Positions 39,725-44,703 of a DNA stretch of 64,000 bases are shown here, piece by piece. The position numbers and the translations under genes are program-made. The notes below the pieces were generated by a model that did no database searches, had not been told where the DNA came from, and saw nothing but the letters and a program-made list of their open reading frames with translations. Each line of letters starts with the position of its first letter. Within the stretch, counting starts at the first letter, position 1. Source of the stretch: Alphaproteobacteria bacterium (lineage in GTDB: Bacteria > Pseudomonadota > Alphaproteobacteria > UBA8366 > Aestuariispiraceae); the NCBI GenBank assembly GCA_024743195.1, contig JANSXE010000003.1, positions 1 to 64,000 on the forward strand, given 5' to 3'.

Positions 39725-40531
39725 ATGACAGCGCCGGAGACGTCGCCCGCCCATTCACAGGATTTCGACCGGCTGTACGATCTGCCGGACCCGCGGCCTT
39801 ACTTCCGGGGTCTCAAGCCCTCCGCCTATCGCATGCCGCAGACCGTCGCCGCCGCGGTCGAGGCCCTCCGGCCGGCGCTTCTGGCGGCGCGCGGGCGGCC
39901 GCCGGACGAGACGCTGCGGCTCCTGGATTTCGCCTGCGGCTACGGAACGCTCGGCCTGCTGCTGCGCCATGATCTGACGATGGATGCGCTCTATCGGCGC
40001 TTCGCCGACGACGGGCTGGAGGAGGACCCGGCCTTCTTCGCCGCCCGCCGGCTGGCGGGCGCGCCTTACGAGATCGCCGGGCTCGACATCGCTGGGCGGG
40101 CGGTCGCCTACGCGCGCCGCGTCGGCGCCGTCGATCTCGGCTTCTCGGAGAACGTGCTCGACGCCGCGCCGGGTCCCGAGCTTTCGGGGTTCCTCGCGAC
40201 CTGCGATCTGATCGTCGAGACGGGTGCGATCGGCGGTCTGCTGGCGCCCGGCTTCGCGCGACTGCTGGAGGCGGCCGGCGACGCGCGGCCCTGGATGCTC
40301 TATTGCCCGCGGCCGAACGTCGATCCGCAGCCGCCGCGCGCGGTGCTGGAGGGCTTCGGCTATCGGGTCGAAGCCCACGGCGACCCGGTCGCCTACCGCC
40401 GTCCCCTGTCCGAGGTCGAGCGCGCGGAGGTTCTGCGGCAGGGGCGGGCGCTCGGCCTTTCGGACGCGGACGTCCTGGACGCGGACGGCTTCATGCGGGT
40501 GCAGATCCGCCTCGCGCGACCGGGTTCCTGA
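39725..40531 (+). CDS. Class I SAM-dependent methyltransferase-like protein
   Basis: The 268-residue protein has a recognisable motif I LRLLDFACGYGTLGLLLRH and downstream Rossmann-like strands such as CDLIVETGAIGGLLAPGFARLLEAAG. The spacing between motif I and the acidic strand is enlarged by an insertion (residues about 85-115), so it is an atypical member. The N-terminus (FDRLYDLPDPRPYFRGLKPSAYRMPQ) is shared by a group of uncharacterised alphaproteobacterial methyltransferases. The substrate is unknown. Confidence 0.8.
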   Translation: MTAPETSPAHSQDFDRLYDLPDPRPYFRGLKPSAYRMPQTVAAAVEALRPALLAARGRPPDETLRLLDFACGYGTLGLLLRHDLTMDALYRRFADDGLEEDPAFFAARRLAGAPYEIAGLDIAGRAVAYARRVGAVDLGFSENVLDAAPGPELSGFLATCDLIVETGAIGGLLAPGFARLLEAAGDARPWMLYCPRPNVDPQPPRAVLEGFGYRVEAHGDPVAYRRPLSEVERAEVLRQGRALGLSDADVLDADGFMRVQIRLARPGS

Positions 40532-40558: not shown

Positions 40559-41674
40559 CTAGAGAAAGGGCAGGTCGGTCGGTTCGGCCGCGCGCTCGTC
40601 TCCCGCCAGGGAGACGGCGAACGGGCCGCCGCGGTCGAGCGCGTGGATGGCGGCGAGGCCGATCCCGATGGTGCGGCCGAGGCGCGGGGACCGGCAATGC
40701 TCCCACAAGGTCCCGACGGGCGCTCCGTCGCGCAGAATCGGGTGCGGACCCGGGTCCGCCGCGGCGGGGCCGTCGATCAGCCAGCCCGTGCGCCGGCGCG
40801 TCCGGCCCGCTTTCGCGCGCGCCTGCAGGGCCTGCTTGCCGATGAAGTCGTCCGGGCGCTCGAGATCCACGAGCGCCCCGAGGCCGAGCTCGAACGGGTC
40901 AGCCGGCCGTTCCTGCCGTCGCGCGTCCGCGCCGTAGGAGAGCAGGCCGCTCTCGATCCGCTCCCAATCGTTCGGCGCGCCCGGGATGATCCCATGCGGC
41001 GCGCCGGCCTGTTTTACGCGCCGCCAGAGATCGCCGCCCCGCGTCCCGTCCGTCAGGTAGAGCTCGAAGCCGCCTTGCTTCGACCAGCCGGAGCGCGCGA
41101 CGATCAGGGGAATCCCGTCCAGCGTCGCTTCGCGGAAGCCGAAATAGCGCAGGTCCCGCACCCAATCCCCGAACAGCGCGGCGGCGACCTCGACCGCTTT
41201 CGGGCCCTGGATGGCGAGCGGCGAGACGTCCGGCTCCGACACCCGCACGTCGAGGCCGCGCTCCTGCGCGATCGCCTCGGCCCACAGCGCCACGTCGCTG
41301 TCGGCGATGGACAGCCAAAAACGCGTTTCGCCGAGCGGCAGCAGGACCGGGTCATTGATCAGCACGCCCTGGCGATCGCACAGCGGGACGTAGCGGCCCT
41401 GACCCGGGTCCAAGCGCTTCAGTCGGCGCGGCGTCAGCAGACGGACAAGCTGTGCGGCGTCCGGCCCCTCCAGCGCGACCTGCCGTTGGGCGGCGACGTC
41501 CCACATCACCACGCCGTCGATCAGGCGGGCGTATTCCGCCTGCGGATCGCCGAAACTCCCGGGGATCAGCATGTGATTGTAGACGGAGAAGGAGCGGACC
41601 CCGTCCGCGACGGTCGCCTCGAAATAGGGCGAGCGGCGCAGATTCGGGCCGACGGCGATGGCAAAGGGCGGCAT
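40559..41674 (-). CDS. DmdA-like aminomethyltransferase (candidate DMSP demethylase)
   Basis: The 371-residue protein belongs to the GcvT fold and closely resembles DmdA, the tetrahydrofolate-dependent dimethylsulfoniopropionate demethylase. Shared DmdA-type segments are RSPYFEA, VYNHMLIPGSFGDPQAEYA, MWDVAAQRQVALEGPDAAQLVRLLTPR, GVLINDPVLLPLGETRFWLSIADSD and EPDVSPLAIQGPKA. Where GcvT proteins read GYTGEDGFE, this one has GWSKQGGFE (196-204), the DmdA form. It starts 8 bp after ggt, so both are probably one operon. dmdB, dmdC and dmdD are not in the window. A DmdA paralogue acting on another methyl donor is the alternative. Confidence 0.75.
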   Translation of the reverse strand: MPPFAIAVGPNLRRSPYFEATVADGVRSFSVYNHMLIPGSFGDPQAEYARLIDGVVMWDVAAQRQVALEGPDAAQLVRLLTPRRLKRLDPGQGRYVPLCDRQGVLINDPVLLPLGETRFWLSIADSDVALWAEAIAQERGLDVRVSEPDVSPLAIQGPKAVEVAAALFGDWVRDLRYFGFREATLDGIPLIVARSGWSKQGGFELYLTDGTRGGDLWRRVKQAGAPHGIIPGAPNDWERIESGLLSYGADARRQERPADPFELGLGALVDLERPDDFIGKQALQARAKAGRTRRRTGWLIDGPAAADPGPHPILRDGAPVGTLWEHCRSPRLGRTIGIGLAAIHALDRGGPFAVSLAGDERAAEPTDLPFL

Positions 41675-41682
41675 GGGGATGA

Positions 41683-43614
41683 CTATTCCGGCGCCACGTA
41701 ATCCGGGACGACCGCCTCGAAGCCTCCGAACAGGCGGGGGTCCAACTGGCGCTCGCCGATCGCGCGCCCCTCGCGGCGCGGGTCGGCCCCGCCGATCAGT
41801 TGGTCGGCGATCAGCTCGACCCCGTGCAGGCCGCTCGTCATCTCGCGAAGCTGCACCTCGTAGCCGCGCTGGCGCATCGCCTCGGCGAGGTCGGCCGCGG
41901 CCGTTCCCTCCTCAAGCTCCAACGGGCCGTTGCGGTTCAGGTAATGCGGCAGGTCGATCGCCTCCTGCACCGTCAGGTCCCAGTCCAAGACGCCGAGCAC
42001 GGCCTGCGCCGTATAGCCGATGATGCGGCTGCCGCCGGGGGAGCCGATGGCGAGGCGCGGCTCCCCGTCCGGCGCGAAGACCAGGGTCGGGCTCATCGAG
42101 CTGCGTGGGCGCTTGCCGCCTTCCATCCGGTTCGGATGGAGGCCGGTCTCGGGATCCGGCGTCGACGGCCAGGCGAAGTCGGTGAGCTGGTTGTTCAGCA
42201 GGAACCCGCCCACCCACAATCCGCTGCCGAAGGCGAATTCGATGGAACTGGTCATGACCGCCACGTCGCCGGCCTCGTCGACGATGGTGAGATGGGTGGT
42301 CGAGGGCGGCTCCTCCGTAGCGGTCGGGGCGGGGTCGGGACCTGCGGGCGCGCCCGGCGGCCGGCCGAAGGGGGCTGTCTCCTTCGGCGCGTCCGTCAGG
42401 TCCATCAGCGCCGCGCGCTCTGTCAGGTAGTCCCGGTCGAGCATTCCGGCCACGGGCACGTCGGCGAAGTCCGGATCGCCGATATAGCGGTCGCGGTCGG
42501 CGTGGGCGAGCTTCATCGCCTCCGCGAAGAGCTGCACCGAGCGCGGATGCAGCGGCGGATCGGCGTCGAGGACCCGATCCTCCAGCAGCCCCAGGATTTG
42601 CAGCACCGTCAGCCCTCCGGAGGAGGGCGGCGGCATGCCGCAGACCGTGAAGCGCCGATAGGGCGCGCAGAGATTTGGGCGCACCTTGGCCTCGTAGCCG
42701 GCGAGATCAGCTTGCGTCAGGACGCCGGGATTGACCGGGCTGGTCCGCACGGCCTCAACGATCGCCTTGGCGATCTCTCCCTCGTAGAAGGCGTCGACGC
42801 CCTCCGTCTGGATGGTGCGCAGGGTCCGGGCGAAATCCGGGTTCTTCAGGATGTGGCCGACCGGCCAGGGCTCGCCGGCCGCGTCATAGAAGAAGTCCCG
42901 CGCGGCGGGCGTCTTCTTGAGCGTCGGGATGCCCGCCAGCATGCCGTTCAGGCGCGGCGAGACGGGAAAGCCCTCCTCCGCCATGCGGATCGCGGGATGG
43001 AGCAGCGCGTCGAACGGCTTCGATCCATGCGCCGCGTGCGCCGCCTCCAGCATGCGAAGCAGGCCCGGCGCGCCGACGGAGCGGCCGCCCGCCAGCGCTT
43101 CGAAATAGCCCTTCTGCGCGCCGTCGGACCGCAGGAAGAGCGATCCGTCGGCGGCCTGCGGCGCGGTCTCGCGCCCGTCATAGGTGGTCAGGCGTTGCTC
43201 GGACGCATCCCAATAGAGCAGAAACCCTCCGCCGCCGACGCCCGAGGATTGCGGCTCCACCAGCGTCAGCACCATCTGGGCGGCGATCAGCGCGTCGATC
43301 GCGCCGCCGCCGTCCTCCAGCACCTGCGCCCCGACCTGAGCGGCGGCGGGATGTGCGACCGCGCTGATATAGCGTTCCGCATAGGTCGGGGCGGCGGGGC
43401 CGTGCAGTCCCTCCTGCATCTCGCGGAAGATGGCCTCGCGCATGGCGGCGTCCGAGTCGACGGCTTCCGCCGGCGCTTCGAGCGCATGGCCGCCCAGCAC
43501 GCCGCCGAACAGCGCCGCCAGCATCCAGCCGCCGATCACCGCGCCGCCGCCCAGCAGCGCGACTCCCACCGCGGCGGCGAGAAGGTTCTTCGGGGTCCAG
43601 GTCGGCTGGCTCAT
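41683..43614 (-). CDS. ggt: Gamma-glutamyltransferase (membrane-anchored precursor)
   Basis: The 643-residue protein is an N-terminal-nucleophile gamma-glutamyltranspeptidase, which cleaves glutathione and other gamma-glutamyl compounds. The autocleavage and catalytic threonine are in PPSTTHLTIVD. Other motifs are PQSSGVGGGGFLLYWD, the GMPPPSSGG segment and SMSPTLVFAPDGEPRLAIGSPGGSRII. The N-terminus has one long hydrophobic helix with Gly/Ala (residues about 13-38) and no obvious cleavage site, so it may stay anchored and face the periplasm. The ATG at 43614 is used; a GTG is one codon upstream. It precedes the DmdA-like gene. Confidence 0.94.
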   Translation of the reverse strand: MSQPTWTPKNLLAAAVGVALLGGGAVIGGWMLAALFGGVLGGHALEAPAEAVDSDAAMREAIFREMQEGLHGPAAPTYAERYISAVAHPAAAQVGAQVLEDGGGAIDALIAAQMVLTLVEPQSSGVGGGGFLLYWDASEQRLTTYDGRETAPQAADGSLFLRSDGAQKGYFEALAGGRSVGAPGLLRMLEAAHAAHGSKPFDALLHPAIRMAEEGFPVSPRLNGMLAGIPTLKKTPAARDFFYDAAGEPWPVGHILKNPDFARTLRTIQTEGVDAFYEGEIAKAIVEAVRTSPVNPGVLTQADLAGYEAKVRPNLCAPYRRFTVCGMPPPSSGGLTVLQILGLLEDRVLDADPPLHPRSVQLFAEAMKLAHADRDRYIGDPDFADVPVAGMLDRDYLTERAALMDLTDAPKETAPFGRPPGAPAGPDPAPTATEEPPSTTHLTIVDEAGDVAVMTSSIEFAFGSGLWVGGFLLNNQLTDFAWPSTPDPETGLHPNRMEGGKRPRSSMSPTLVFAPDGEPRLAIGSPGGSRIIGYTAQAVLGVLDWDLTVQEAIDLPHYLNRNGPLELEEGTAAADLAEAMRQRGYEVQLREMTSGLHGVELIADQLIGGADPRREGRAIGERQLDPRLFGGFEAVVPDYVAPE

Positions 43615-43687
43615 CACGGGTCTCGACGGCGGTCGGGGAGGGGTCTGGAGGCGGCCCCGGGCGGAGCGGCGGAGAGACGCGGGCGGG

Positions 43688-43996
43688 TCACCCGGACCGG
43701 ACGGCGGCCCGGCCGGCCTCGGTCAGCTTGCAGACCAGCCAATCCGGCTTCAAGGGATTGTTGAACCAGGGCTCCGCCCAGCCGCGCTCGATGCAGCTGC
43801 GCACCGTGCGCTCGCTGATCCGCTGGCCGTAGGCGTCGAACAGCGGGAGCTTGCCGCCCGCCTGGTCGAGCCCGCGGCGCAGATAGGCGAGCTGGGCCTT
43901 GCTCGGCCGCGCGACGCCCGGCGTTTGCGATTGGGCGGCGGCTTCCGTCGCGCCGTCGCCGTCTCCCGCCGCCAAGCTTTGATCCTGCGCCGTCAT
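43688..43996 (-). CDS. Small wHTH-like hypothetical protein
   Basis: The 102-residue protein has about 30 disordered N-terminal residues and then a compact helical domain: RPSKAQLAYLRRGLDQAGGKLPLFDAYGQRISERTVRSCIERGWAEPWFNNPLKPDWLVCKLTEAGRAAV. The end reads like a winged helix (recognition helix, wing, LTEAGRAAV typical of MarR/ArsR-like folds). I know similar uncharacterised proteins in alphaproteobacteria but no function. It lies 73 bp upstream of ggt and 80 bp after the HD gene, so it could be the last gene of one operon or the first of the next. Confidence 0.7.
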   Translation of the reverse strand: MTAQDQSLAAGDGDGATEAAAQSQTPGVARPSKAQLAYLRRGLDQAGGKLPLFDAYGQRISERTVRSCIERGWAEPWFNNPLKPDWLVCKLTEAGRAAVRSG

Positions 43997-44076
43997 GGCC
44001 GGTCCTCCTGCGCCGCGCTGCGCGCGTCGACCCGCAATGGTACGGCATGCAGCGCGGAAGGCAAGCAAGCCCGGCC

Positions 44077-44703
44077 CTATCGCCGCGCCATCGCTGCGGC
44101 CAATGTCTCGAAACGCTTGAGGAAACCGGCCTTCGCTTCGTCCGGCGGCTGCGGCGCGGCGTCGAAGGGGCCGGCGATGCGCACCTTCGGCGGCGCGCCC
44201 CACAGGCGGCGCGCCTCGGCCGCGCTGAAGCCGGCGATCTGGGTCGCCTCCAGATAGGCGCCCTGACGGTCGGCGCGCTTGATCTTGCGCGCGATGTCGG
44301 CGGGCAGGTCCGCCGGCAGGCCGAACCGCAGATGGACCGCCGCCTGCAGCCCTTTTTCGAGTTTCCTGTAATCGTAGCCGACGGCCGTCTTGAAGGGCGA
44401 GATCATGTCGCCGACGACGTATTCGCTGGCGTCGTGCAGCAGCGCCGCCAGCCGCCACGCCGGCGAGAGGCCGGGAGTCGCCTCCACCGTCAGCGCCTCG
44501 ACCATCACCGAGTGCTGGGCGACGGAGAAGGCCCAGGCGCCCGTCGTCTGACCGTTCCAGCGGGCCACGCGGCTGAGGCCGTGCGCGATGTCTTCGATCT
44601 CGACGTCCATCGGCGTCGGATTCAAGAGGTCGAGCCGGCGGCCGGACAGCATTCGCTGCCAGGCGCGGGGCGCGGGCTTTTCCGGTGCGCGCGTGGACGT
44701 CAT
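44077..44703 (-). CDS. HD-domain hydrolase (YfbR-like)
   Basis: The 208-residue protein has the HD-phosphohydrolase metal motifs: a His in FSVAQHSVMVEAL, the His-Asp pair in ALLHDASEYVVGDMISPFK, and a late Asp in KRADRQGAYLEA. The best match in memory is the YfbR 5'-deoxynucleotidase-like branch. The ATG at 44703 is used; the frame extends upstream into the hyi gene. It is the last gene of the C40 peptidase-TSUP-Hyi-HD run, 19 bp after hyi. Confidence 0.9.
   Translation of the reverse strand: MTSTRAPEKPAPRAWQRMLSGRRLDLLNPTPMDVEIEDIAHGLSRVARWNGQTTGAWAFSVAQHSVMVEALTVEATPGLSPAWRLAALLHDASEYVVGDMISPFKTAVGYDYRKLEKGLQAAVHLRFGLPADLPADIARKIKRADRQGAYLEATQIAGFSAAEARRLWGAPPKVRIAGPFDAAPQPPDEAKAGFLKRFETLAAAMARR

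Follow-up and report, generated by a model that had tools for sequence, protein, structure and literature searches.

What does a DmdA-like methyltransferase do when it is encoded beside a gamma-glutamyltransferase (GGT) and none of the genes dmdB, dmdC and dmdD adjoins it? The question is posed by a window of 64,000 nucleotides (the whole stretch of DNA analysed here) from an alphaproteobacterium of the Aestuariispiraceae, in which the reverse-strand open reading frame at 40559-41674 starts with ATG and encodes a 371-aa protein with GCV_T (residues 35-266) and GCV_T_C (residues 293-370) domains, presumably a tetrahydrofolate (THF)-dependent methyltransferase. The original prediction saw in this protein a DmdA-like enzyme acting on a sulfonium or amine donor, and took its pairing with a membrane-anchored GGT, together with the absence of dmdBCD, to indicate either a new DmdA clade or a different substrate.

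Sequence and motifs of the DmdA-like protein

The best solved relative of the 371-aa protein is the DmdA of P. ubique (PDB 3tfh; 37% identity, E 2e-74), and the NCBIfam DmdA model NF009133 matches it with an E value of 7.4e-105, a likeness far beyond chance, at a score of 350.9 bits that misses the curated cut-off of 410. GCV_T domains are also common to GcvT and the TMAO demethylase, but here the scores lie far below the cut-offs (TIGR00528, 97.8 against 235.85 bits; NF053776, 161.4 against 1100). The two motifs named in the original prediction are both present, VYNHML at residues 31-36 (41567-41584, reverse strand) and GWSKQGGFE at residues 196-204 (41063-41089, reverse strand). The latter had been described as standing in place of GYTGEDGFE, a supposed deviation that does not hold up: P. 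ubique DmdA itself reads GWSKQGGYE, and the second motif position is Tyr in 23 and Trp in 18 of 41 DmdA rows, so that the motif is of DmdA type and we dropped the notion that it is unusual. For the same reason Trp197, the residue at that position, does not tell substrates apart.

In base composition the gene (GC 0.72, GC3 0.89) matches six nearby genes (0.70-0.73 and 0.87-0.92). An AlphaFold model had 3tfh as its top fold match, but the model is weak (mean pLDDT 72.8; TM 0.54 and rmsd 10.8 to 3tfh) and too poor for the pocket to be read from it.

Phylogenetic position and distribution

To place the protein we relied on a careful IQ-TREE analysis of 88 of the 144 sequences collected, in which DmdA and an outlying clade Z are represented by chosen rows and L003, L007, L041b and L108 are left out. 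The DmdA core (16 rows, support 100/99) has as its sister a 53-row clade (99/97) that holds the window protein, which falls in an 18-row subclade X (100/99) with L123 from genome G138 as its nearest row (98/90). Forcing the window protein into the 16-row core, whose membership was read off the tree, costs 91 log-likelihood units and is rejected by the AU test (p 4.28e-5). A first, quick tree of 116 rows (without L004, L005, L006, L008, L013, L014, L036 and low-identity second matches) returned the same sister relation with lower support on the window protein's side (93). Membership in DmdA was accordingly rejected: the protein lies outside the clade that unites the P. ubique and P. inhibens enzymes, scores below 410 bits, and has changes at His50, Gln56 and Cys260. 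Placement outside the DmdA clades is one of the two findings by which the original prediction said it could be refuted, and it is what the tree shows. The predicted choice between a new DmdA clade and a different substrate is borne out halfway, in that the clade exists as a sister to DmdA rather than a part of it, and the different substrate is plausible.

Among 385 genomes of the class, 55 contain matches to the DmdA model at E<=1e-75 and 32 pass its cut-off, with a group at roughly 345-395 bits below it. In the window's own genome the model finds 14 matches at E<=0.001, all of them below the cut-off. One is a paralogue with 54% identity on contig C29 (L055, G000:C29:110254-111345); an aminotransferase-like gene adjoins it, and phn-like genes lie nearby (names given by eye). 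Relatives at 57-65% identity come from G005 and G010, which belong to the same family, from genomes of Rhodobacterales type, from one gammaproteobacterial bin and from a plasmid of Phaeobacter sp. G2; the same-genus genome G001 lacks a close relative (best match 39%). In 299 genomes of the phylum, matches at E<=1e-105, a limit that excludes weaker ones, were confined to the own genome and G655. By the quick tree, G005 and G010 each hold a DmdA-clade gene besides the orthologue, that of G005 scoring 577 bits with the family model.

Clade Z lies outside the group formed by DmdA and its sister, mostly reads GWSSELGYE, and includes plasmid genes of Phaeobacter and Loktanella. At four of its loci (L047, L048, L049 and L051) we observed a cassette of Lrp, the clade Z DmdA relative, OsmC, enoyl-CoA hydratase and acyl-CoA synthetase; of the Phaeobacter and Loktanella plasmids that carry it, two are typed as conjugative.

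Conserved and substituted residues

Column counts come from 121 aligned rows. Of the 45 rows in the quick-tree DmdA clade, 41 entered the counts, L027, L070, L097 and L108 being left out. The passages of PMC7487153 available to us name a Glu, a Tyr and one Ser as folate-site residues, and by an offset that we infer from taking their W171, E178 and Y180 as W197, E204 and Y206 of P. ubique, these would be Glu204, Tyr206 and either Ser122 or Ser126. By this numbering both the SKQGGF/Y-E-x-Y motif, whose final Glu in GWSKQGGFE would be the folate-site E204, and the folate-site residues are present in the window protein. E204, Y206 and the two candidate serines are kept in 18/18 subclade X rows, as are N33, Y95, W120, D125, D127, Q156, F178, S198, K199 and Q200. 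With the folate-site residues retained, the likely chemistry is the transfer of a methyl group to THF, the donor being a small onium compound.

Other positions set the protein apart. His50, Gln56 and Cys260 are invariant in the 41 DmdA rows and are R50, V56 and L263 (query numbering) in the window protein. The marks of subclade X are N11, D236 and an insertion of three residues at about 255-257 (40904-40912, reverse strand), which its 18 rows have and the aligned DmdA, subclade Y and clade Z rows lack.

Origin of the GGT adjacency

The GGT gene (41683-43617, reverse strand) lies 8 bases upstream of the DmdA-like gene on the same strand, its product scores 373.9 bits against a GGT cut-off of 357.85, and an N-terminal hydrophobic stretch can be read by eye, all of which agrees with the pairing as it was first described. 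On the other side lies a forward-strand open reading frame of 268 aa (39725-40531) that has no Pfam or NCBIfam match, looks methyltransferase-like by eye, and is kept at 41-44% identity in the family genomes G005, G009 and G010. GGT relatives were found in 11/11 family genomes searched. In G005, G009 and G010 the GGT gene is convergent with the methyltransferase-like gene, the match ends lying about 60-70 bp apart with no DmdA-like gene between them, whereas the window has the DmdA-like gene placed precisely between this pair; in G001 the surrounding block is kept without either GGT or the methyltransferase-like gene. As the two genes meet end to end in three genomes, the simplest reading of these sequence comparisons is that the DmdA-like gene came beside GGT by insertion in the window's lineage.

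Near the far side of GGT, the reverse-strand frame at 43688-44458 aligns over its whole length at 56% in G001, while beside GGT in G005, G009 and G010 only its last ~75 codons are kept (79-83%), so that the real gene may be small.

One could imagine from the shared strand and the 8-base spacing that GGT frees a gamma-glutamylated substrate which the DmdA-like enzyme then demethylates. We regard this as very improbable, since at the 54 other loci where a DmdA-like gene was called no GGT lies within five genes, and no DmdA-like gene stands beside GGT in the four other family genomes opened (G001, G005, G009 and G010). In addition, the hydrophobic N terminus implies that GGT would be active in an extracytoplasmic location, and no THF is expected there. 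A conserved GGT-linked operon was discarded on the same absence of adjacency from the relatives' loci and from G005, G009 and G010, and with it goes the functional reasoning that had been built on the pairing; the two genes would have no functional link.

Gene contexts of relatives

Gene neighbourhoods were called with a homemade caller, by which some starts are overrun and the DmdA-like gene is called in 54 of 57 loci (L107, L185 and L197 being missed, with the context of L107 set by hand); each of the cluster names used below (such as BKACE, Rieske and E1) was assigned from one or two representatives that were tested. For ten of the 18 subclade X members, among them the window protein, the scored clusters yield no informative neighbour. 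The most frequent context in the remainder, seen in seven members (L009, L134, L174, L176, L177, L178 and L180), places the gene between a methionine gamma-lyase and an AceE-like E1 on one strand. Three other members of the sister clade (L115, L117 and L121) have a threonine-aldolase-like gene in their neighbourhood, and L117 alone also has a FAD-plus-GcvT protein next door. In the cousin subclade Y, Marivivens LCG002 has a dmdB-C-D operon, L187 and L196 have dmdB- and dmdD-like genes and L182 a dmdD-like gene, and five members (L136 and L192-L195) adjoin Rieske/VanA_C and panB-type (ketopantoate hydroxymethyltransferase-like) genes, one representative of each having been tested.

A carnitine-type context is found in subclade X at L057 (G010), beside a carnitine 3-dehydrogenase (797.9 bits against 592) and a BKACE gene. 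It recurs in a trio (L105, L107 and L111, family f86) that is sister to subclade X (98/92) and lies beside BKACE and a carnitine-dehydrogenase-like gene, whose product, tested for L105, is under both curated cut-offs (461.9 against 592 and 401.2 against 414). The physical carnitine link is limited to these 2 lineages (4 genomes). The window's own genome encodes an L-carnitine dehydrogenase (482.8 bits, cut-off 414), whose gene adjoins a BKACE-like one with 58% identity to that of G010; the pair lies ~218 kb from the DmdA-like gene. At E<=1e-80 the carnitine dehydrogenase family occurs in 15/18 class-sample genomes with a sister-clade member, in 18/30 DmdA genomes (a count that left out G377 and G121, at 419 and 415 bits) and in 64/385 overall, an enrichment that is suggestive only because the sets overlap and relatedness is uncontrolled; over the cut-off it is present in only 25/385 genomes.

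A separate observation concerns arsenic. The edge of an operon of the arsR-GAPDH-arsJ type lies within ~2 kb of the DmdA-like gene at 3 of the 17 subclade X loci other than the window (L045, L134 and L174), and at 0/37 other loci with a called DmdA-like gene. That arsenobetaine, itself an onium carboxylate, might explain these neighbours is only an idea.

Proposed function and alternative explanations

On the sequence evidence assembled here, we consider it reasonably probable (about 60%) that the window protein is a THF-dependent demethylase of a small onium carboxylate, belongs to the sister clade of DmdA, and has its GGT neighbour by insertion and not through joint work. Homology, clade, retained folate-site residues and the gene order around GGT are observed directly; the reaction, the substrate class and the absence of a functional link to GGT are what these observations make likely. 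In the proposed reaction THF would take the methyl group directly from the onium, as it does in DmdA, and 5-methyl-THF would form with no redox step; the substrate would be a betaine of the sulfonium or the quaternary ammonium type. The main substrate is probably a compound other than DMSP. Our first guess, a tentative one, is a trimethylammonium betaine, such as glycine betaine derived from carnitine, on account of the carnitine-type neighbours at L057 and in the trio just outside subclade X; we lowered our estimate slightly because the trio's dehydrogenase falls under both curated cut-offs. An MttB-family gene lies 2.3 kb from the Phaeobacter G2 orthologue. The idea that the window protein fills the place of a missing betaine demethylase is weakened by five MTTB-family proteins in the own genome (each of 21 genomes searched has between 1 and 21), given which it may already possess a betaine demethylase of a known kind; the portions of PMC12478193 seen by us describe MtgBCD, which includes an MTTB-family protein, as a widespread glycine betaine demethylase.

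The obvious competitor keeps DMSP as the substrate: the protein would be a DmdA-type enzyme that has diverged, and the pathway around it would be incomplete or dispersed. DMSP-type contexts exist both in the true DmdA clade, at P. inhibens, and in subclade Y, whose dmdBCD operon keeps DMSP among the possible substrates; parsimony could then make the common ancestor a DMSP enzyme, and the folate-site residues are kept. Against this stand the tree and AU test, the changes at the three residues invariant in DmdA, and the DmdA-clade genes that G005 and G010 carry besides their orthologues. The pathway partners speak on both sides. The predicted absence of dmdBCD stands for the immediate neighbourhood and for DmdD, no relative of P. 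inhibens DmdD being found in the own genome at E<=1e-40, although AcuH can replace DmdD according to the text of PMC5395565 available to us. It does not extend to DmdC, as the genome has a DmdC-type acyl-CoA dehydrogenase (49% identity) and G655 has another ~8 kb from its orthologue L173; this family was present in 20/20 genomes searched, so that the match says little. Within five genes, 0/18 subclade X members have a DmdB, DmdC or DmdD relative over the identity limits of 35-40% (a 32% DmdB-like gene near L058 falls under them). Taken together, we judge DMSP demethylation to be rather unlikely as the role of the window protein.

Unlikelier still, in our estimate, is that the window protein is an S-methylmethionine:THF methyltransferase, whose product methionine would be broken down by methionine gamma-lyase and a 2-oxobutyrate dehydrogenase. 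The seven flanked members hint at such an activity: at all six loci from our G-numbered genomes the lyase next to the gene scores above the TIGR01328 cut-off, and that of L009 passes two lyase models. At L176 and L180, however, E1 and the DmdA-like gene are not adjacent, as an Lrp-like gene on the opposite strand stands between them, and the E1 substrate is itself inferred, the E1 proteins scoring 162.7-201 bits, far below the aceE cut-off of 859.9. The window's own genome does have a lyase-E1 pair (63% and 57% identical), but on another contig and unlinked to the window gene; as in G195, no DmdA-like gene lies beside it. In eight other genomes with a subclade X member no lyase over the cut-off was found. 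Moreover, the seven lyase-linked members share R23, V123, H129 and G306 (7/7) where the window protein has Ala, Ile, Ala and Pro, which speaks against the lyase-linked specificity for it; Ile123 is found in ten of the eleven other subclade X rows, the window protein included. It is possible, if far from assured, that the sister clade is made up of several substrate-specific THF demethylases, including an S-methylmethionine type (with lyase and E1 genes) and a trimethylammonium-betaine type (with carnitine genes), and that the window protein is one of its members.

Relation to known systems and implications

With the DmdA structures (3tfh, 3tfi and 3tfj; NF009133) the window protein has in common the domain family, length, SKQGGFE, the folate-site residues and ~37-42% identity, and it differs in scoring below the cut-off, in lying outside the clade, in its three-residue insertion and in reading R/V/A/L/E for H50/Q56/N249/C260/S323. 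PMC7487153 describes a 'non-DmdA' clade whose members are close relatives adjoining DmdA, the majority having a DmdA-like tertiary structure; these are DmdA relatives too, compared here by description only, and the passages available do not include gene contexts. As far as the accessible part of PMC3160333 goes, SAR11_1265 is a DmdA paralogue next to metF. It is likewise a relative of DmdA but, unlike the window protein, would belong to clade Z, outside the DmdA-plus-sister group and mostly with GWSSELGYE; we place it there by the Z members in genomes with a P. ubique-like DmdA, not by accession. Relatives are thus in print at least in outline, and the separate subclades and their gene contexts seem new within our search. 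This search, which covered titles and the starts of abstracts mostly outside the subscription literature, yielded no earlier report of a THF-linked demethylase of S-methylmethionine or betaines.

Genes of this kind are easily labelled DmdA or GcvT, the Phaeobacter G2 orthologue being annotated 'glycine cleavage system protein T', and they may therefore be miscounted in surveys of DMSP demethylation. If S-methylmethionine or betaines do pass methyl groups to folate in this way, one-carbon metabolism would gain a point of entry in addition to the cobalamin and homocysteine methyltransferases.
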